Of a stretch of DNA of 64,000 bases, positions 49,516 through 58,932 are shown piece by piece (position 1 is the first letter of the stretch; the number at the start of each line of letters is the position of its first letter). The DNA is from Natronobacterium haloterrestre. Lineage in GTDB: Archaea; Halobacteriota; Halobacteria; Halobacteriales; Natrialbaceae. The stretch spans positions 62,001 through 126,000 of the forward strand of contig NZ_FOKW01000007.1 in the NCBI RefSeq assembly GCF_900112205.1, read 5' to 3'. Under the pieces are notes generated by a model. The model did no database searches, was not told the origin of the DNA, and saw only the letters and a program-made list of their open reading frames with translations. The position numbers and the translations under genes were made by a program.

Positions 49516-51849
49516 ATGATACCGAACACACTCACACCCGGAACGCTGTTGATCGCGATCGCAGCGTTCGCGAGTAGTCTCGCGGCGATTCTCCTGTTGT
49601 ACGGCTACGTCTACCGAACCGACGAACTCCGACCCGTGACACTCGTGGCCGCCAGCACGTCGACCCTCTCGCTGGTCGTCGCCCACACGTACCTCACCTA
49701 CCAGTTCGTCGTCGGCGATTACACCAATGCGTACGTCTGGCAGAACTCTGCAGACTACCTCGCGCTGCTTTACCGCCTGACAGGTCCGTACGCGAATCAC
49801 GAGGGATCGATCCTCCTCTGGGCGACCTTAACTGCGGTCGTCGCCACGTGGACGGTGTACTCGAGTCGGTTCGAGGGCCGGGGAGCGAACCTCGCACAGT
49901 CGATCTCGCTAGGTATCGTCGCTGCCTTCGCGACCATGCTCGTCGCCCAGAGTCCCTTTACCCCGATCGAAGTCGCGTTTCCGGACACGCCAGCGGGATT
50001 CGTCCCGCCGGACGGTGACGGCCTGAACCCGCTGCTGGTCGATCCCTGGATGGCGATCCATCCACCGATCACGTTCAGCGCCTACGCGCTGTTGATCGTT
50101 CCGTTCGCGCTCGGAGTTACGCACTTCGTCTCCCTGTTCCGGGGTGAAGACAGCGTCTTCGACGAATGGCTCGGGAGCATGCGCCAGTGGCTGCGAGTCT
50201 CCTGGCTGCTGTTGACCGCGGCGATCGTCTTCGGCGGCATCTGGGCCTACGGCGTCCTCGGGTGGGGCGGCTTCTGGTCGTGGGACCCCGTCGAAACCGC
50301 CGTGTTGATCCCCTGGCTCGCACTGACCGGCTCCCTGCACGCGATCAACCGCTACGGCAAGACCGGCGAGTATCCGATCTTCGCGCCAGCGTCGGCGACG
50401 CTCGTTTTCCCGATCGTAACCTTCGCGACGACGGTCGTTCGCAGCGGGGTCTTCCGGAGCGTTCACTCCTTTGCAGCGGGCGGGATCGGAACCGGCATCC
50501 TGTTCCTGCTCGGCGTCACTGGAACGACGGCGATCGCTCTTCCGTTCACCTACTGGTTCCTCGAGGCAGAGGAGGGGAGCCGAGATGCCGACGAGCCCTG
50601 GCTGAGCCGCCGTACCGTCTATCACGGAGCCGTGCTTGCCTTCGGCGTCCTCGCCTTTGTTTCGATCTGGGGGCTGTCTTTCCCCGTGATCCGCAACGCT
50701 GCGACCGGTGTCGAGGTCAGCGTCGGTCAGGACCACTACAACCTCTGGAGTTATCCCGTCGTCGTGGTGGGTCTGCTGGCGGGCGGGATGTACGCGCTGC
50801 TCGATCTCCGACGGCGAAAGCTGGCGATCGGCGCGACGGCGGCCGTCGCGGTTTCGACCCTCATCGCGGCGTTTATCGCCCCCTCGGCGAATTGGTACCT
50901 GAGCGATCCCGCTGCCCACGATCCACTCGTCTATCGGATCGTCGGTTCGGTCAGCGTCCTTTCGATCGTCCCGCCAGCGGCGTATTTCGCGGGTTCGTGG
51001 ATCTGGCGGTACGTCGACCGAATCCGGGGCGTCCCGTCGAGAACGTTCAAGATCCGCGAGACGGGGATCGTTCTCACTCACGTCGGCGCTGCGATGTTGA
51101 TCGTCGCTGTCTCTTTCATCTACCTGTTCTCGACGTCGGCATCGGTCGCAGTCGTCGGAATCGACGATGCCGGGACCGACCCGGAACCGATCGTCGAGGA
51201 GTCGCCCGACGGCGAATACGAAGTCCACGTGAGGAACTACGAGACCGTCGAAGAACCGACGATAGAGGAGGCGGCACGGAGTCCCGAGGAGGTACTGGCC
51301 GTCGACGAGGACGCCTCGCTGGTTCGGGGGGAGATAACCGCCATCGATTCGATCGACGGGACCGCGATCGCCCGGCTCGAGGACTCGAGCGTCTGGCTCG
51401 CGGGTGCCGACGACTCGCTTTTCGAAGAAGGGGACGAAGTCATCGCCCGTGGGACCGTTTTCGAGGGGGAGACGGCGGCAACGGACGCCCAGGCGTTCGT
51501 CTACACGGACGCTGACAACATGGGCCCGGTGTCGGATCCACCTCGTGACGTCCACACGCCGCGAGTGACCTCGCACGAACTCGACGTGACGGTCTACGAG
51601 GGTGGCGAGCGCGTCGCCGAAGGGACGCTCGCCGAGCAGGAGTACCTGCACTCACAGATGAACACCAACGATGCCGTGATCGAACGCGGGATCGCCGGCG
51701 ACACGTACGTCGTTGGGTCGATCGACGAACGCAGCGCGTCCATTACTATCGACACTTACCCGCTGGCGAACCAGATCTGGTTCGGTGTCGTACTTATGAT
51801 CGTCGGGATGACAGCGGTGACGCTGGCTGACAGTCGACGCGACCAGTAA
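49516..51849 (+). CDS. ccmF: Cytochrome c heme lyase subunit CcmF
   Basis: A 777-residue polytopic protein with about 14 membrane helices. The heme-handling WWD motif is visible near residue 255 (GILGWGG-like GVLGWGGFWSWDPVETAVLIPW), and other family segments include ANHEGSILLWA, DPWMAIHPPITFSAYALLIVPFALGV and RYGKTGEYPIFAPASATLVFPI. A soluble external beta domain lies at about residues 560-745 between the last helices. CcmF ligates heme to the CXXCH of exported apocytochromes, receiving it from CcmE. The protein is longer than E. coli CcmF (about 650). The ATG at 49516 lies 27 bases after the thioredoxin-like gene, implying one operon with it. Confidence 0.92.
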   Translation: MIPNTLTPGTLLIAIAAFASSLAAILLLYGYVYRTDELRPVTLVAASTSTLSLVVAHTYLTYQFVVGDYTNAYVWQNSADYLALLYRLTGPYANHEGSILLWATLTAVVATWTVYSSRFEGRGANLAQSISLGIVAAFATMLVAQSPFTPIEVAFPDTPAGFVPPDGDGLNPLLVDPWMAIHPPITFSAYALLIVPFALGVTHFVSLFRGEDSVFDEWLGSMRQWLRVSWLLLTAAIVFGGIWAYGVLGWGGFWSWDPVETAVLIPWLALTGSLHAINRYGKTGEYPIFAPASATLVFPIVTFATTVVRSGVFRSVHSFAAGGIGTGILFLLGVTGTTAIALPFTYWFLEAEEGSRDADEPWLSRRTVYHGAVLAFGVLAFVSIWGLSFPVIRNAATGVEVSVGQDHYNLWSYPVVVVGLLAGGMYALLDLRRRKLAIGATAAVAVSTLIAAFIAPSANWYLSDPAAHDPLVYRIVGSVSVLSIVPPAAYFAGSWIWRYVDRIRGVPSRTFKIRETGIVLTHVGAAMLIVAVSFIYLFSTSASVAVVGIDDAGTDPEPIVEESPDGEYEVHVRNYETVEEPTIEEAARSPEEVLAVDEDASLVRGEITAIDSIDGTAIARLEDSSVWLAGADDSLFEEGDEVIARGTVFEGETAATDAQAFVYTDADNMGPVSDPPRDVHTPRVTSHELDVTVYEGGERVAEGTLAEQEYLHSQMNTNDAVIERGIAGDTYVVGSIDERSASITIDTYPLANQIWFGVVLMIVGMTAVTLADSRRDQ

Positions 51850-51864
51850 CGAGCCCCGTCTTCG

Positions 51865-52542
51865 CTATTCTTCGACGATGTACTCGAACGTCATCCAGCC
51901 CGCAAGCAGGACGAGCAGGTCGTAGGTCACCAGGATCCGGAACCACGCCGAGGTCATCCCCTCCGAAAGTCCGGGGGCAGTCAATGCCGTCCCCGAGAGG
52001 ATGGTCGGGATAACAAGCGGGACGAGCAGGACCGGCAGTAGCGATTCCTGTAACTGGGAATGGAGCATAAGGATCGACAGCAACACGCCGACAGCGCTGA
52101 ACCCGAGCGCGGCAAGTGGGACGACCAGCAACACCGTCGTGAGCGTCGCCATGTCGAACGCGTAATCGAGGAAGACGACGACGAATCCCAGGCTCAGGAG
52201 CCCGATTCCGGTAATAAAGACCGTCGAACTCGCGACTTTCCCCAGGTAGATCGCCGACCGGTCGACCGGCGCAAGCAGCAGGCCGGCGATGGCCTCGTTT
52301 TTCCCCTCGAGCGCGACGGCGTGGGACATGCCGACCGCACCGCCGAAGACGACGGCCAGCCACAGGGCGCCGCGGGCGAGCACGTCGCGAGAGCCGACCT
52401 CCTCGCCGAAGACGAACGAGAAGACGACGATGATGAGCAAGGCGAACACGAAAGCGGCGTTCGTCGTCTGCTTGCTGCGGGATTCGACCAGCAGGTCCTT
52501 GCGGGCGATGGTGTAGACGACCCGGAGGTAGTCCCCGATCAT
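51865..52542 (-). CDS. ccmB: Heme exporter permease CcmB
   Basis: A 225-residue ABC permease with six predicted helices. The start DYLRVVYTIARKDLLVESRSKQTTNAAFVFALLIIVVFSF is the classical CcmB N-terminus, and RGALWLAVVFGGAVGMSHAVALEGKNEAIAGLLLAPVDRSAIYLGK follows the family pattern. With CcmA it forms the ABC unit of cytochrome c maturation system I, which drives release of heme-loaded CcmE from CcmC. The ATG overlaps the ccmA stop by ATGA, so ccmA and ccmB are translated together. It converges with ccmF, 15 bases away. Confidence 0.93.
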   Translation of the reverse strand: MIGDYLRVVYTIARKDLLVESRSKQTTNAAFVFALLIIVVFSFVFGEEVGSRDVLARGALWLAVVFGGAVGMSHAVALEGKNEAIAGLLLAPVDRSAIYLGKVASSTVFITGIGLLSLGFVVVFLDYAFDMATLTTVLLVVPLAALGFSAVGVLLSILMLHSQLQESLLPVLLVPLVIPTILSGTALTAPGLSEGMTSAWFRILVTYDLLVLLAGWMTFEYIVEE

Positions 52543-53348
52543 CCGTCGTTTGGCCCTCCGTCGTCGCCGGGTCCGCCTGAGCTTTCGGTTCCCGTCCCCA
52601 CAGCCGTCGACCGCGTCGGAACCGCCGTCGCGCTCGTTACCGCCCGCGGTTCGCCGCCCGTACAGCGTCGTTCGTACTCCTCGAGCACGTCACTCGCACC
52701 CTCGAACGCCGTCGTCTCGAGGTCGCCTACGAGGCGGCCGTCGTTCATGAACAGCGCGCGATCCGCCAGCCGGTAGCCCCGCTCGAGATCGTGTGTTGCC
52801 GCGAGGACGGTCCGATCCTCGAGATCCTCGAGGACTGCCGCGACGCGTTTCAGCGAGGTCTGGTCGAGCCCGGTGTAGGGTTCGTCGAACAACAGGAGAT
52901 CGGGGTCGTGGACGAGTGCCCGGGCGAGCGAGACGCGCTTGCTCATGCCGTGGGAGAAGCCGCTGACCCGTTCGCCCCCGCGGTCGGCGAGGCCGACCGT
53001 CTCGAGCAGCCCGTCACAGACCGTCGCGTCGACGTCGTGTAGTCGGGCGTGCAACCGGAGGTTTTCCCGTGCCGTGAGTTCCTCGTAGAGCATCGTCTCG
53101 TGGGCGACGACGCCGAGCCGAGAGCGAACCGCCGCGTTGCCGCCGACCAGCGGCTCGCCTTCGATCTCGATCTCGCCCTCCGTCGGGCGGGACAGCGACG
53201 CGAGCATCCGGATGAGCGTCGTCTTTCCGGCGCCGTTGGCACCGAAGAGGACGACCGTCTCACCGGCATCGAGAGTGAAAGAGACGTCGTCGACGCCGAC
53301 GTGCGTGCCAAACCGCTTTGTCACGCCGGAGACGGAGACGAAAGCCAT
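52539..53348 (-). CDS. ccmA: Heme exporter ATP-binding protein CcmA
   Basis: A 269-residue ABC ATPase. Walker A is GANGAGKTTL near residue 37. The signature region is SGFSHGMSKRVSLARAL, a variant of the usual LSxGQ typical of CcmA-like ATPases. Walker B is DLLLFDEPYTGLD, and the switch His is in AATHDLERG. The last 50 residues form a low-complexity tail of Thr, Gly and Ser. It powers the CcmABCDE heme-release step. The start at 53348 is fixed by a CTTAAG box 28 bases upstream that is shared with ccdA on the other strand. The stop overlaps ccmB by ATGA. Confidence 0.93.
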   Translation of the reverse strand: MAFVSVSGVTKRFGTHVGVDDVSFTLDAGETVVLFGANGAGKTTLIRMLASLSRPTEGEIEIEGEPLVGGNAAVRSRLGVVAHETMLYEELTARENLRLHARLHDVDATVCDGLLETVGLADRGGERVSGFSHGMSKRVSLARALVHDPDLLLFDEPYTGLDQTSLKRVAAVLEDLEDRTVLAATHDLERGYRLADRALFMNDGRLVGDLETTAFEGASDVLEEYERRCTGGEPRAVTSATAVPTRSTAVGTGTESSGGPGDDGGPNDG

Positions 53349-53373
53349 TGCCCGACGCTTGGCGGACGCATGA

Positions 53374-53379
53374 CTTAAG
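53374..53379. promoter_or_regulatory. Palindromic TATA element shared by ccmA and ccdA
   Basis: CTTAAG, its own reverse complement, has its centre 28.5 bases from the A of the ccmA ATG (53348, minus strand) and 28.5 bases from the A of the ccdA ATG (53405, plus strand). One symmetric box could therefore position transcription in both directions to give leaderless mRNAs. Confidence 0.6.
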
Positions 53380-53404
53380 CATTGTAATTCCGTACTGTCG
53401 CTCG

Positions 53405-54085
53405 ATGGAGCTACCGACGCTGTCAGTCGTTCTCCTGGCTGGTGCGGCCACGATTCTGACGCCGTGTTGTCTCCCCCTGTTGCCACCGCTGCTATCGGGC
53501 AGCGTCGGTCACCGTCTCCGCCCCGTGGCGATCGTCTCGGGCAGCCTGCTTTCGTTTATCCTGCTCGGCGTTCTCGTCGGTACTCTGGGTTCGTTTTCGC
53601 CGGAGACGCTTCGTGCGCCGGCGTTTCTGGCGATCGTCGCATTCGGCGCGGTGATGGTCGACGACGACCTGCACGGGATCTACTCGCGATACGCCTCGCG
53701 ACTCTCGAGTACCGCCACCGAACGCGTCGCTGCGCTCGACGAGCAACGACACCCGCTCGCGTCGGCGTTCTCGCTCGGTCTCCTGCTCGGGGTGATCTGG
53801 CTGCCCTGTGTCGGCCCCGTACTGGGTGCCGTCCTCGCGTACGCCGCGACGACCGGGGCAGCACTCGAGAGCGGTGCGTTCCTGTTCGTCTACGGCGTCG
53901 GGTTCGCGATCCCGCTTTTGGGCGTCGCCTACGGCGGCAAGATAGCGGGCCGGTCGATCGCGGACTACCTCGGGGTACTCGGCCGGCGGGACGTGGTTCG
54001 GCGGGCGGTCGGCGTCGTCCTGCTCGTGACCGGCGTCGCCCTGCTGTTCGAGGCCGACCGGGTTTTCCTTTCGGCGCTGTACTGA
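53405..54085 (+). CDS. ccdA: CcdA/DsbD-type thiol-disulfide electron transporter
   Basis: A 226-residue membrane protein with six predicted helices. The two redox-active cysteine regions of the CcdA family are present: TPCCLPLLPPLLSG with C21-C22 at the start of the first helix, and LGVIWLPCVGPVLGAVLAYAA with C135 in the fourth. CcdA carries electrons from cytoplasmic thioredoxin across the membrane to extracellular thioredoxin-like proteins, keeping apocytochrome c cysteines reduced. The membrane thioredoxin-like protein at 49027 is the likely acceptor. The start shares a symmetric promoter with ccmA. The unusual adjacent Cys-Cys in the first motif may not change function. Confidence 0.88.
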   Translation: MELPTLSVVLLAGAATILTPCCLPLLPPLLSGSVGHRLRPVAIVSGSLLSFILLGVLVGTLGSFSPETLRAPAFLAIVAFGAVMVDDDLHGIYSRYASRLSSTATERVAALDEQRHPLASAFSLGLLLGVIWLPCVGPVLGAVLAYAATTGAALESGAFLFVYGVGFAIPLLGVAYGGKIAGRSIADYLGVLGRRDVVRRAVGVVLLVTGVALLFEADRVFLSALY

Positions 54086-54406
54086 GGACCGAGACTGCTA
54101 GCTGATATCGCGCCGAAACGGAATGCGGCGTCTGGAGGTGTAATTCCGCCCTGGTCGCGCCGAGACCGTGCTGGAGTCGACCGACGTCAGTATCCGCCTC
54201 GTCCTGGCCGCCCAGAACCGCCGTCGAGGTTCCGCCATACACAGATCACCCGGTTCGGACGAGCGGGCACTGTCCCGACGACTCGAGCGAGAGTGTGCTA
54301 TCCCCATCGGTCGGTCCGAAGGTCCGGGGAGAACGTGACGACAGACATTCCTACTGTGTCGCGACTGGCGAAGGTTTGATGTGACGACGCCCGGAAGGGA
54401 GACGTA
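54086..54406. other. Intergenic region between ccdA and ccmE
   Basis: No supported gene is seen in these 321 bases; open frames on both strands have poor composition. The only clear element is TTTGAT at 54375-54380, about 29 bases before the ccmE ATG, which could be its TATA-like box. Confidence 0.45.
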
Positions 54407-54877
54407 ATGGATCGGAAAGTAAAGGTAGTGGTCGGTGGCGTCGGTATCGCCGTTCTCCTGGCGATCCTGGCGACCACGACGATGGGATCGGCCGCCCAGT
54501 TCGTCACCCCGACCGATCTCGCGGAAACGGACGACCACGACGATACCGTCGTCAAACTCGAGGGGCAGGCCGTCAACGTCGACGATGGCGATCCGATCAC
54601 CTTCGAAGTCGCGGACGAGAACTACACCAAGCCGGTGACCTACGACGGCGAGATGCCCGAGACCATGTCCGACGGCCGGGTCGTCGTCGCCGAGGGGTAC
54701 TTCGACGGCGAGGAACTCGAAGCCGACGACCTGACGGTCAGGGCTCACGAGGGCGAACATCCCGAGGATCACCCCGCAACCGAGACGAACGAAACGTCCG
54801 AGCACCTCGAGGACCACGCCACGACTGACGGGAACGAAAGCGACGAAGGCGGTGAACACGACGGGACCGATAGCTAG
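54407..54877 (+). CDS. ccmE: Heme chaperone CcmE, variant heme-binding motif
   Basis: A 156-residue membrane-anchored protein. One N-terminal helix (residues 6-28, VKVVVGGVGIAVLLAILATTTMG) is followed by an OB-fold domain with the family segments VVKLEGQAVNVDDGDPITFEVADENYTKPVTYDGEMPETMSDGRVVVAEGYFDGEELEADDLTVRAHEGEHPEDH. CcmE binds heme covalently on the outer face and passes it to CcmF. The usual HxxxY heme site (or the archaeal CxxxY) is here H114-E-G-E-H118, so the axial Tyr position is a His. The C-terminus is acidic and rich in His. A TTTGAT box lies about 29 bases upstream of the ATG. Confidence 0.87.
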   Translation: MDRKVKVVVGGVGIAVLLAILATTTMGSAAQFVTPTDLAETDDHDDTVVKLEGQAVNVDDGDPITFEVADENYTKPVTYDGEMPETMSDGRVVVAEGYFDGEELEADDLTVRAHEGEHPEDHPATETNETSEHLEDHATTDGNESDEGGEHDGTDS

Positions 54878-54998
54878 CTCGAGTCGTCCGCTTTCGACGC
54901 CGACCGCTGTTTTCGTATCCACAATCGAAGTTTCCGATAGCGTACTTTTTGTTCCCGATTTCTCACTGTCGATTCCTGAATGCGGATAACGAGGGCGG

Positions 54999-55008
54999 TT
55001 TTTAATTA
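54999..55008 (+). promoter_or_regulatory. TATA box of the mini-ORF and molybdoenzyme operon
   Basis: TTTTTAATTA is the strongest TATA-like element in the local region. Its centre lies 27 bases before the ATG at 55031, placing the expected transcription start at the mini-ORF start codon rather than at the molybdoenzyme gene 113 bases further on. Confidence 0.7.
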
Positions 55009-55030
55009 GACGGCTCCCCGAGTACCCCCC

Positions 55031-55147
55031 ATGATACAGGGGATCGACGGAACGTCGATCGATCAGGGACCCACCTTCGACGTCGGAACCGCTCCACCCG
55101 AGCGGGTGGCCCGAGCGGGACGGCCGGACCGGGTGATCCATCGATGA
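55031..55147 (+). CDS. 38-residue leaderless mini-ORF coupled to the molybdoenzyme gene
   Basis: An open frame of 38 codons beginning MIQGIDGTSI and ending in a basic stretch. It starts exactly where a leaderless transcript from the TTTTTAATTA box should begin, and its stop codon overlaps the molybdoenzyme start by ATGA (55144-55147). The peptide is hydrophilic with no known motif. It may be a leader cistron that loads ribosomes for the membrane enzyme, a regulatory peptide, or a small partner protein. Comparative data would be needed to tell whether the amino-acid sequence or only the coding is conserved. Confidence 0.55.
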   Translation: MIQGIDGTSIDQGPTFDVGTAPPERVARAGRPDRVIHR

Positions 55148-56655
55148 CCGAGCGACGGCTCGTCACTGTCGTGACGTTGCTCGCCGCGGGTATCTCGGCA
55201 GTCGCAACGTCGTTCGGAATCTACGCGACCTCCGAGCGGTTCCTCGTCTCGTCGTTCAATCGACTCGTCCTCGAAGTACTCCCGGGCTGGTTCGTCTCCG
55301 CGGTCATCCAGCGGTTCGGGGATCTCGCACTCGAGTTGAGTCTGCTCTTTTCGGGCGTCCTGCTGTCCGTGATCGTCGGTTCCCTGGCCCTGGCCGGATA
55401 CCGGCTGGGTGCGAGCGCGTTGCCCGCTTCCCGGGAACTGGTCGGGGCCGTACTCTCGGTCGTGTTCGTCTTCCTGGCAGCGTATCTCGTGGTCGGCGTC
55501 GCCCGCGCGGCCATCCTTCCGGCGGTCGTCGGCGGCGCCGTCGTCGCGGGATTCGATCACCTCTCGACCGCGGGAGACGCGAGTGCCGATGTGAGCCCCG
55601 ACCGGCGTTCGGTCGTCCAGGCGGTCACAGTCGTCGCTGGGTACAACGTCGTCGCTCACGGACTCGGCTTCCTTCGCCGGAGCCAGACCCAGCGAACCGA
55701 ACGCGAACTGCAGGAACGCGCGACGCGACTCGAGGCCGAACACCTGGTCTCCGAGGCCGACGACGCCGGACTGGAAGCCGACGGAATCAAGCCGTTGATC
55801 TCCGAAATCGGCGAATTCTACAAGGTCGATATCAATCCGAGTCCACCCTCGATCGATCCCGACGGCTGGCGCCTCTCCGTAACGGGGCTCGTCGAGGAGG
55901 AACTCGAACTCGACTACGACGACGTCCGTGGGTACGAAACCCGCAACCGGTACAAGGCGATCCGTTGTCTGAGCGACGACATCGACGGTGAACAGCTGGA
56001 TACCGCCGTCTGGATCGGTGTTCGGATGGCAGACATCCTCGAGGAGGCCGGGATCGAAGACGAGGGGGAGTACGCGTTGCTGTCCGGCGCCGACGATTAC
56101 TACTACTCGGTCCCGCTCGAGGACCTCGAGGAGTCCATGCTCGCGTTCGGGATGAACGGGATGGAGCTTCCCGCCGGTCACGGCTACCCCGTTCGACTGC
56201 TGGTTCCCGACCGCTGGGGGAAACTCCACGTCAAGTGGCTCACGGATGTCGAGATCATCGACGACGGGGAAGGCGGTTACTGGGAGGAACGCGGCTGGCA
56301 CGGAATGGGGCCGGTCAACGCGGTCACGAAGGTCGACCGGATCAATCGGCTCGAGGACGGCGGTATTCAGCTGGTCGGACACGCCTACGCGGGTGCCCGC
56401 GACGTCGAGACGGTCGAGGTGTCGATCGACGGCGGCGACAGCTGGGAGTCGGCGACGCTGAGCGATCCGCTTCCGGATTCGGACACGACGCGCCAGTGGT
56501 TGTACGAAATCGATCCTGACGAGGGTGATCCGGACAGCTACGACGTCTACGCGCGAACGATCGACGGTGAGGGGACCGTCCAGCCGGAAGCCCGATCGGA
56601 CCCGTTCCCGGACGGGGCCACCGGATGGGCCCACAGGTCCGTTCGTCGGGGCTAA
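55144..56655 (+). CDS. Sulfite-oxidase-like molybdopterin oxidoreductase with N-terminal membrane domain
   Basis: A 503-residue protein. Residues 1-185 contain four or five hydrophobic helices with a positively charged C-terminal end (RRSQTQRTERELQERATRLEAE). The external or cytoplasmic catalytic domain (about residues 210-500) is of the sulfite oxidase fold: GWRLSVTGLVEEELELDYDDVRGY, the molybdenum-ligand region KAIRCLSDDIDGEQLDTAVWIGVRMADIL with C275, GYPVRLLVPDRWGKLHVKWLTDVEI, and a C-terminal dimerisation domain with VEVSIDGGDSWESATL. Haloarchaeal members often serve as membrane-bound sulfite or nitrate-related oxidoreductases; the substrate is unknown. Position inside the cytochrome c region suggests electrons go to or from a c-type cytochrome. 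Translation is coupled to a mini-ORF by ATGA. Confidence 0.85.
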   Translation: MTERRLVTVVTLLAAGISAVATSFGIYATSERFLVSSFNRLVLEVLPGWFVSAVIQRFGDLALELSLLFSGVLLSVIVGSLALAGYRLGASALPASRELVGAVLSVVFVFLAAYLVVGVARAAILPAVVGGAVVAGFDHLSTAGDASADVSPDRRSVVQAVTVVAGYNVVAHGLGFLRRSQTQRTERELQERATRLEAEHLVSEADDAGLEADGIKPLISEIGEFYKVDINPSPPSIDPDGWRLSVTGLVEEELELDYDDVRGYETRNRYKAIRCLSDDIDGEQLDTAVWIGVRMADILEEAGIEDEGEYALLSGADDYYYSVPLEDLEESMLAFGMNGMELPAGHGYPVRLLVPDRWGKLHVKWLTDVEIIDDGEGGYWEERGWHGMGPVNAVTKVDRINRLEDGGIQLVGHAYAGARDVETVEVSIDGGDSWESATLSDPLPDSDTTRQWLYEIDPDEGDPDSYDVYARTIDGEGTVQPEARSDPFPDGATGWAHRSVRRG

Positions 56656-56742
56656 CTCCCCTCTCCAGCCGTCAGATCGAAAAAATTCACCGGCCTCGCT
56701 CGAGGCCTCGGACGTCAGTGCCGGTCGATCGTCCCGGCGGCG

Positions 56743-56886
56743 TCAATCCTGTCCACTCGATTCGCGCTCTGCCGTTACGTCCTCGAGACGCTGCTCGAGT
56801 TCCGACAGTCGATTCCGAAGGTAGAACACGTAAACGACGAGCGCTCCGAATACGGCACCGTAGGCGAACAGCAACAGGTAGTCCAT
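56743..56886 (-). CDS. ccmD: CcmD-like small membrane protein
   Basis: A 47-residue protein following ccmC by 6 bases. It has one membrane helix (DYLLLFAYGAVFGALVVYVFYL, residues 2-23) followed by a short charged coiled coil (RNRLSELEQRLEDVTAERES). This is the architecture of CcmD, which stabilises the CcmABC heme-release complex; sequence conservation of CcmD is always weak, so the call rests on size, topology and position. The frame ends TGA at 56743-56745. It would be missed by a minimum-length gene filter. Confidence 0.8.
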   Translation of the reverse strand: MDYLLLFAYGAVFGALVVYVFYLRNRLSELEQRLEDVTAERESSGQD

Positions 56887-56892
56887 GGCTGA

Positions 56893-57639
56893 TCAGTACT
56901 CCTCCGTCGGTTTGTAGGTTTCCGTCCGCGAGCGCTTCTTCAGCGAGTCGACACGGGTCGTGAGTTCGTGCAGACGAACCCTGGCCGCAAGCAGGGACAG
57001 GTAGAGAAACAGGACGGCGACGAGCGACACGAACAGCACCGAGGCCGTAATGGCGGCTTCCGCGTCGGGGTTGCCGACCGACGGCGCGTGCAGCCGGGCG
57101 GTCCACAGCCGCGTCGACGCGTAGGAAATGGGAACGGTAATGAACCCGATGACGCCGTAGACGGAGGCGAGACGGGAGACTCGGCCCGCTCCGCCGCCAC
57201 TCGAGTAGATGATCAGATAGCCCGCGTAGATGAACCAGACGAACAGGAAGGTAACCAGCCGGATATCGGACCAGTTCCACCAGGTGTTCCAGATGACGCG
57301 TCCCCACGCGCTGCCCGTGACCAGCGTCAGCGTCGCGAATACGAACCCCAGTTCGGCAGAGCCGTGGGCGAGTTGTTCCCAGAACCGAGTGCCGGTGACG
57401 AGATAGCAGACGCACCCGAGGAAGGTAACCGTCAGCGCCAGACCACCGACCAGTGCGAGCGGGACGTGCCAGTACGCAATGAGGTTGACCCCGTGGCTGA
57501 CGCCGTACATCGAGTCCGACGCATAGCCAAACACTAGCCCGAGCGATGCGAGGCCGAACAGTAGCGTGAGATACCCGTGCACGGAACTACGGAGTATCCG
57601 CCGTAGTAGTCCGATCGTCCGTTTTTCGTACGAGCCCAT
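56893..57639 (-). CDS. ccmC: Heme handling protein CcmC
   Basis: A 248-residue membrane protein with six predicted helices. The WWD heme-binding motif is WGRVIWNTWWNWSDIRLVTFLF near residue 118, flanked by conserved histidines in SHGVNLIAYWHVPLALVG and ARLHAPSV. CcmC loads heme onto CcmE. The C-terminal 40 residues are charged (RVRLHELTTRVDSLKKRSRTETYKPTEEY). The start at 57639 is supported by GTTTTTTGAG about 27 bases upstream; the longer frame adds 16 unconserved residues. It is followed 6 bases later by the ccmD-like gene in the same operon and diverges from hemE. Confidence 0.93.
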   Translation of the reverse strand: MGSYEKRTIGLLRRILRSSVHGYLTLLFGLASLGLVFGYASDSMYGVSHGVNLIAYWHVPLALVGGLALTVTFLGCVCYLVTGTRFWEQLAHGSAELGFVFATLTLVTGSAWGRVIWNTWWNWSDIRLVTFLFVWFIYAGYLIIYSSGGGAGRVSRLASVYGVIGFITVPISYASTRLWTARLHAPSVGNPDAEAAITASVLFVSLVAVLFLYLSLLAARVRLHELTTRVDSLKKRSRTETYKPTEEY

Positions 57640-57756
57640 ACTCCCGGGTTCGCTGCCACTCTCAAAAAACATCCGTCCCGTTCCCACCGTTCGGAGAGTT
57701 CTCGGCGTCGGATGGGTGACCGCCGACCTCCGTCGGCGAACGTGTCAGGTTCAACC

Positions 57757-57824
57757 TATATAAGAGGACTGTATTTTACAGACGTACCGGCGTAACCAGT
57801 TACTAATAAGTAGGGGCTACTTAT
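57757..57824 (+). promoter_or_regulatory. Upstream TATATAAG box and hairpin before hemE
   Basis: A strong TATATAAG (57757-57764) and, 42 bases further, a perfect 8-base inverted repeat ATAAGTAG-GGG-CTACTTAT (57806-57824) lie in the ccmC-hemE spacer. They are separate from the TATTAGG box (57891-57897) that fits a leaderless hemE start. The hairpin could be an operator or an RNA structure in a longer hemE transcript. Confidence 0.45.
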
Positions 57825-57890
57825 GCACCATTGTCATCGACTGACAGGATAGTTCACGTTGTCCATCCTCGCTGCGACGGGTTTCACAAC

Positions 57891-57897
57891 TATTAGG
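57891..57897 (+). promoter_or_regulatory. Proximal TATA-like box of hemE
   Basis: TATTAGG lies about 28 bases before the hemE ATG at 57922 and supports that start over a GTG/TTG-type extension of 21 codons upstream. Confidence 0.55.
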
Positions 57898-57921
57898 CCA
57901 GCCCCTCGCTTACGGGTGGCC

Positions 57922-58932
57922 ATGAAAGACCTGTTCCGCAAGGCAGCCCGGGGCGAACCCACCGAGCGCCCCCCGGTGTGGATGATGCGCCAGGCCGGCC
58001 GGTACCTGCCGGAATACCGGGAACTCCGGGAGGACTACTCGTTCCTCGAGGCCATCTCCACGCCGGAAGTCGCGGCCGAGATCACGCTCCAGCCCTGGGA
58101 GCGGTTCCGTCCCGACGCCGTCGTCATGTATTCGGACATTCTGACCGTGCTCGAGCCCCTGGGGTTCTCCTATCACCTCGAGTCCGGCGTCGGCCCGGTC
58201 GTCGAGAACCCGGTCGAAGCGCCTGCAGACACCCGCCGCGAACGCGGCGACGTCCGCGAACAGCTGTGGTACGTCGGCGACCTGCTCGAGCGACTCACGG
58301 ACGAACTCGGGGACCAGGCCGCGACGCTTGGCTTTGCCGGCGGTCCGTTCACGCTTGCCGCCTACGTCTGTGAGGGGACGCCCTCGCGGTCGTTCATGGC
58401 GGTCCGTCGGCTCCGGGCGGAACACCCCGAGGCGTTCGAGCGACTGCTCGAGGCCTTTACCGACGTGCTGGTCGAGTACGTCGAGTTCCAGGTCGAGTCG
58501 GGTGCCGACGCCGTCCAGCTGTTCGACACCTACGCCGGGTTGCTCTCGCCGGCCGACTACCGGGAGTTCCTGCTCCCGTTACACCGGAGGGTCCTCGAGG
58601 CCGTCGACGCCCCGACGATCGTGTTCGCGCGCAACGTGAGCGGCAACCTCGATCTGCTGGCCGACAGCGGGGCCGACGTGGTCGGCCTCGACTGGACGGT
58701 CGACCTCGAGTCGGCACACGAGCAACTCGCGGACGAGGACGTCGCGATCCAGGGCAACCTCGATCCCGCCCTGCTGTACGGCGATCCCGAGACGGTTCGC
58801 GAGCGCACACGCGACGTCATCGACGCGGCGGGCGACGCCGGCCACATCCTCAATCTGGGCCACGGCGTCGACCGGAACACGCCGGTCGAGAACGTCGAGG
58901 CGTTCTTCGAGACGGCGAAAACCGTCGAGTAG
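57922..58932 (+). CDS. hemE: Uroporphyrinogen III decarboxylase
   Basis: A 336-residue cytoplasmic TIM-barrel enzyme that decarboxylates the four acetate side chains of uroporphyrinogen III to give coproporphyrinogen III. The substrate-binding N-terminal motif RPPVWMMRQAGRYLPEYRE is intact. So are the glycine-rich GFAGGPFTLAAYV, the catalytic Tyr/Asp region VQLFDTYAGLLSPADY and the C-terminal LNLGHGVDRNTPVENV. The presence of hemE with hemH and hemY nearby indicates porphyrin-route heme synthesis in addition to or instead of the siroheme-based archaeal route. It converges with hemH, 13 bases away. Confidence 0.95.
   Translation: MKDLFRKAARGEPTERPPVWMMRQAGRYLPEYRELREDYSFLEAISTPEVAAEITLQPWERFRPDAVVMYSDILTVLEPLGFSYHLESGVGPVVENPVEAPADTRRERGDVREQLWYVGDLLERLTDELGDQAATLGFAGGPFTLAAYVCEGTPSRSFMAVRRLRAEHPEAFERLLEAFTDVLVEYVEFQVESGADAVQLFDTYAGLLSPADYREFLLPLHRRVLEAVDAPTIVFARNVSGNLDLLADSGADVVGLDWTVDLESAHEQLADEDVAIQGNLDPALLYGDPETVRERTRDVIDAAGDAGHILNLGHGVDRNTPVENVEAFFETAKTVE

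Follow-up and report, generated by a model that had tools for sequence, protein, structure and literature searches.

The 56-base gap between ccmA and ccdA very likely constitutes a compact two-way core promoter, in which one TATA box would serve two divergent leaderless transcripts. Judged from its sequence, this is probably a previously undescribed and conserved example of the archaeal promoter type with a shared TATA box, directing two mRNAs of the same pathway. Our literature search, which covered a limited set of listings, found no described haloarchaeal ccm promoter of the shared-TATA type. The promoter lies within a cytochrome c maturation cluster that, together with hemE and a molybdopterin oxidoreductase gene, occupies positions 49516-58932 of the window (the whole stretch of DNA analysed, 64,000 nucleotides). 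The source is a haloarchaeon, with a G+C content of 66% in a 262.9 kb sample of the contig (L066-L075 plus the window) that was used for composition and box distances. The features of the locus are as follows.

49516-51849, plus strand: ccmF
51865-52542, minus strand: ccmB (Pfam CcmB, 4.5e-18), overlapping the end of ccmA and running in the same direction
52539-53348, minus strand: ccmA-like ABC transporter ATPase (Pfam ABC_tran, 6.9e-33), predicted leaderless
53359-53391: 33-base conserved core, comprising both BREs, the TATA box and the outer bases TT.G.GGACG and TAATTCC
53367-53373, plus strand: BRE-like flank CGCATGA, towards ccdA, the first seven positions of the motif match at −38
53374-53379, both directions: CTTAAG, predicted shared TATA box, the best motif site for both genes
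53380-53386, minus strand: BRE-like flank TACAATG (as read on that strand), towards ccmA, the first seven positions of the match at −38
53405-54085, plus strand: ccdA, DsbD transmembrane domain family (Pfam DsbD_TM, 4.1e-17), predicted leaderless
54407-54877, plus strand: ccmE
55144-56655, plus strand: molybdopterin oxidoreductase
56893-57687, minus strand: second Cytochrom_C_asm protein, ccmC-like
from 57928 (start of the match), plus strand: hemE

The ccmA-like protein scores 125.3 bits against the NCBIfam ccmA model, slightly below the cut-off of 131.6, and by context we take it to be the ATPase of a haem exporter. Its gene begins at a minus-strand ATG (53348) and ccdA at a plus-strand ATG (53405); these assignments are supported by the alignment of the first residues of both proteins at these starts in most relatives. 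By eye, no Shine-Dalgarno-like stretch precedes either start. The order and orientation of the cluster differ between relatives, and in L052 ccmF is inverted relative to ccmA.

The centre of CTTAAG (53376.5) is 28.5 bases from the start codons of both ccmA and ccdA, exactly as the initial annotation had it. A single TATA box thus stands at the canonical distance from a start on both strands, and each side of it carries a BRE-like flank in the window. Both TTAA (59 seen, 217 expected) and CTTAAG (5 seen, 23.7 expected) are depleted in the 262.9 kb, so base composition alone would not lead one to expect such a box in the space separating two start codons. CTAG is also strongly depleted there, with 64 occurrences against 825 expected. 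When we searched the 60 bases preceding each of 300 candidate ATG starts of the contig sample for TTAA, 17 of the 24 matches lay at 24.5-29.5 bases, with a peak at 27.5 and 28.5 bases from the ATG (five matches each).

A promoter motif fitted in an unsupervised manner to 281 candidate starts of the contig has a BRE-like AA ahead of a T-rich box, and its sites mostly begin at −38 to −36. Neither ccmA nor ccdA was among the training starts, both having been excluded by the rules of the crude gene caller. In each direction the best match nevertheless begins at −38 and lies over the same CTTAAG: CGCATGACTTAAGC for ccdA, with a score of 7.87, and TACAATGCTTAAGT for ccmA, with 8.61, so that in the window the ccmA-side flank is the stronger of the two. 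Scores as high are reached by 0.11% (ccdA) and 0.07% (ccmA) of coding-background windows. Each direction taken alone would thus be called a leaderless promoter, the two using one box but different BRE-like flanks. Among the divergent gene pairs that the crude caller delivered from the 262.9 kb, 0 of 41 have coinciding boxes, a count that is only rough because the caller omitted the ccmA-ccdA pair itself.

The initial annotation had proposed checking whether the spacing is conserved. Relatives of ccdA were sought in a mixed set of 100 relatives, in 125 genomes from the family and in 392 from the order, sets that overlap, with one additional scan of named genomes, and spacing was counted over the 18 distinct genomes in which ccmA and ccdA stand head to head. 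Homologues of ccdA without an adjacent head-to-head ccmA were excluded from the count, those of L057-L065 among them; in L060, L064 and L065 the two genes are not head to head. A start-to-start distance of 57 is found in 11 of the 18, namely nine Natrialbaceae and two MAGs labelled Halobacteriaceae and Halovenus (L021 and L022). It is 58 in L009, 55 in L033 and L038 (the gap of L038 being identical to that of L023, Haloplanus ruber) and 54 in L035-L037. All but one of the head-to-head genomes (17 of 18) therefore fall within 54-58, of which 9 of 17 belong to one family, so that the shared-box genomes are not independent. The exception is L010, with a distance of 103 by homology, or about 91 from the nearest ATG, and with separate boxes; because it keeps the head-to-head order, sharing of the box is not obligatory. 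For contrast, the gap between ccdA and ccmE ranges from 56 to about 771 in eight Natrialbaceae.

In the same eight Natrialbaceae, 26 of the 33 columns of the core (53359-53391) are invariant and mean pair identity is 93%, against 1 of 23 flanking columns (identity 46-48%) and 8 of 164 fourfold sites of ccmA and ccdA (identity 44-49%). The conserved core thus has sharp limits, with the box roughly at its centre. Together, spacing and alignment indicate that the shared-box geometry is maintained by selection, with the spacing nearly locked. Could the conserved stretch instead be coding, with a longer N-terminus of ccmA or ccdA running through it? The reading frames would allow it in the window, where that of ccmA is open upstream to a GTG at 53486 and that of ccdA to a TTG at 53318. 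Yet the core is invariant far beyond the fourfold sites, the spacings of 54, 55, 57 and 58 are not all in one frame and inspection by eye shows a TAG that ends the ccdA frame in both L005 and L008 and, inside the gap in the window, no ATG, GTG or TTG in frame with ccmA. We consider such an extension highly improbable, and rejected it on core invariance, the TAG stops and the frame-breaking spacings.

The conservation also bears on whether a TTAA came to lie midway by accident, without any promoter role. The bare pattern CAT-N(23-27)-CTTAAG-N(23-27)-ATG is present in 61 of the 125 family genomes, which is not above control, and in the organism's own genome it occurs once, against three times for a reversed control that centres on GAATTC, itself commoner (33 seen in the contig sample). 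As it is not enriched over this control, the bare pattern is uninformative alone, and it is the conservation that rules out chance. The conserved spacing and sequence, the score and placement of the motif for both genes and the depletion of TTAA leave an accidental origin a practically negligible probability.

In every relative measured, the ccdA start lies 26.5-28.5 bases from the shared box. This steadiness is relevant to a one-way interpretation, by which CTTAAG would drive ccmA only, ccdA would be transcribed from another weak box or by read-through, and the symmetry would be a by-product of compact spacing. In line with it, the ccmA-side match is the stronger one in most relatives (in L035 the order is reversed, with 9.51 for ccdA and 7.12 for ccmA). 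Moreover, when unconstrained, the best match for ccdA lies away from the shared box in three relatives (L021, L022 and L009), whose ccdA direction scores only 3.92, 3.92 and 5.63, respectively, at that box. However, the shared box is the best ccdA match in the window and in all eight Natrialbaceae rows, and the site that ranks next for ccdA in the window, with a score of 6.26 and beginning at −30, would put the start inside the gene. As to read-through, the window has no same-direction gene just upstream of ccdA. Transcription of ccmA only from this box thus appears improbable to us, and we favour a promoter that works both ways.

At such a two-way promoter, TBP would bind the near-symmetric CTTAAG and TFB would take one side, contacting CGCATGA for rightward or TACAATG for leftward transcription, and the side taken by TFB would set the direction that RNA polymerase faces. 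The predicted start in each direction is some 28 bases past the centre of the box, on the start codon's A or close to it, which would yield a leaderless ccdA mRNA one way and a leaderless ccmA-ccmB mRNA the other. Because the two complexes would overlap, only one could be loaded at a time. From the arrangement of the elements we infer the protein binding, the transcript starts, the mutual exclusion and the co-transcription of ccmB. The earlier proposal of one TATA box for two divergent transcripts of the same pathway thus gains support from motif position, spacing and core conservation, its leaderless transcripts being a prediction.

The same proposal had gone further and regarded the exact symmetry as a promoter design, which the sequences do not support. 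The canonical box distance of 27.5-28.5 already makes equal distances common: pairs of leaderless genes sharing a box would be exactly equal in about 20% of cases by chance, as calculated from the sum of squares over the 18 TTAA matches at 24.5-31.5 (64/324). Box distances were measured in 12 representatives, with L003, L004, L036 and L037 added from the motif scan. The ccdA/ccmA distances are 28.5/28.5 in the rows with a spacing of 57, and the pairs 28.5/26.5, 26.5/31.5, 28.5/27.5 and 26.5/27.5 are found at the spacings of 54, 55 and 58. Nor is a perfect palindrome with equal distances kept across relatives; of the 17 shared-box genomes, 10 have CTTAAG and the other 7 have GTTAAG, GTTAAA, TTTTAA or TTTTTA in its place. 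On this comparison of sequences, what selection keeps is a near-central box with a workable BRE per side, not a perfect palindrome, and the exact symmetry of the box placement is incidental.

A fixed ratio of the two transcripts, which the symmetry had been thought able to give, is likewise unsupported. The BRE flanks score unequally, both in the window (7.87 for ccdA, 8.61 for ccmA) and still more so in L021 and L022, where the ccmA direction reaches 11.07 and the ccdA direction 3.92. In E. coli, competition at bidirectional promoters is avoided as long as basal activity is low; once one side is strongly activated it can repress the other, and a fixed ratio is then lost (PMC12825309); such a ratio is therefore not generally expected. 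What the two directions share at these bacterial promoters is the −10 box, with starts commonly 18 bp apart (PMC12825309), in contrast to the TATA box and the predicted distance of 57 between starts here.

The closest counterparts known to us are the BRE-TATA-BRE promoters of P. furiosus, at which RNA is initiated in both directions, its two 5' ends lying 49-50 bases apart; this was seen in vivo, and bidirectional initiation was reproduced in vitro for one promoter (PMC6640164). TBP binding is described there as symmetric, with TFB setting the direction, and the other RNA is an antisense transcript regarded as probably non-functional (PMC6640164). The ccmA-ccdA promoter resembles them in having a near-symmetric TATA box with a BRE on each side, the starts being about 50 bases apart there and a predicted 57 here. 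It differs in that both directions would enter conserved protein genes of the same pathway, and in that it comes from a GC-rich haloarchaeon, with genes predicted to be leaderless. Selection apparently keeps a shared-TATA promoter for two mRNAs of the same pathway, as opposed to the probably non-functional antisense RNA of P. furiosus. In Haloferax volcanii, core promoters consist of a TATA box and a BRE and transcripts are mostly leaderless (PMC4983044); these ordinary promoters serve one gene, whereas the ccmA-ccdA promoter would serve two. The latter offers a natural test of the choice of direction by TFB at a near-symmetric box, and also of competition between the two directions.

Two further systems may be compared. 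Like ccmA and ccdA, the haloarchaeal gas-vesicle genes gvpA and gvpD have divergent, closely set promoters between genes of the same pathway; unlike them, they use separate TATA boxes and have a known activator, GvpE. As cited in PMC12825309 and PMC10268837, Warman et al. 2021 reportedly described bacterial and archaeal promoters that are bidirectional owing to symmetry of the DNA sequence, and the likeness is that a symmetric core element lets the machinery load either way.

The extent of the core raises the question of whether an operator is overlaid on the bidirectional promoter. A regulator, for example a redox- or haem-responsive one, would then bind the outer bases (TT.G.GGACG and TAATTCC), and its site would account for a large part of the core conservation; this would supplement the two-way promoter and not replace it. 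The outer conserved bases fall outside the TATA box and the BREs, and the conserved stretch measures 33 bases against roughly 13-18 at two one-way promoters of these genomes, those of ccmE and hemE, a comparison made by eye on motif-picked rows, with hemE in 6 of 8 genomes and one ccmE row one base off. Against this, footprints of TBP and TFB in both orientations could account for much of the core, and with up to 3 mismatches no further copies of the 23-base core or of its 22-base left half were found in the organism's own genome, so that no regulon is seen. The 18-base right half, on the ccmA side, has two weak relatives in that genome with 3 mismatches each. We treat an operator as a possibility that we hold at somewhat less than even; the outer bases may be operator or upstream promoter contacts. 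A bolder and rather unlikely version is that a regulator, or a dedicated TBP/TFB pair from the haloarchaeal set, fixes the direction of TFB loading at the 33-base core, which would then be a composite element. If so, a single site would determine how cytochrome c assembly is balanced between the export of haem (ccmA-ccmB) and the reduction of thiols (ccdA), and the shared TATA box would be a direction switch, conserved in Natrialbaceae and more loosely beyond.

Several observations accompany these results. One of the half-core relatives, in L078, is centred 30.5 bases before a frame of 159 aa that starts with ATG. The one-way promoters of ccmE (GCGAAGGTTTGATG, window 54360-54400) and hemE (TTTCACAACTATTAGG, window 57880-57930) are both visibly conserved across Natrialbaceae. 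On the ccmA side of the box, L021 and L023 carry short inverted repeats, seen by eye, CGTTC-GA-GAACG (5+2+5) and GCCACCT-TCGAG-AGGTGGC (7+5+7), respectively. Being absent from the Natrialbaceae rows, the repeat was dropped as a candidate conserved element, and its presence at about the same place in these two genomes is possibly due to chance or to a local operator. In Natronorubrum bangense JCM 10635 (L020), the ccmA-ccdA pair with its 57-base spacing is located on the plasmid NZ_CP031306.1, and the unit may therefore move between replicons.
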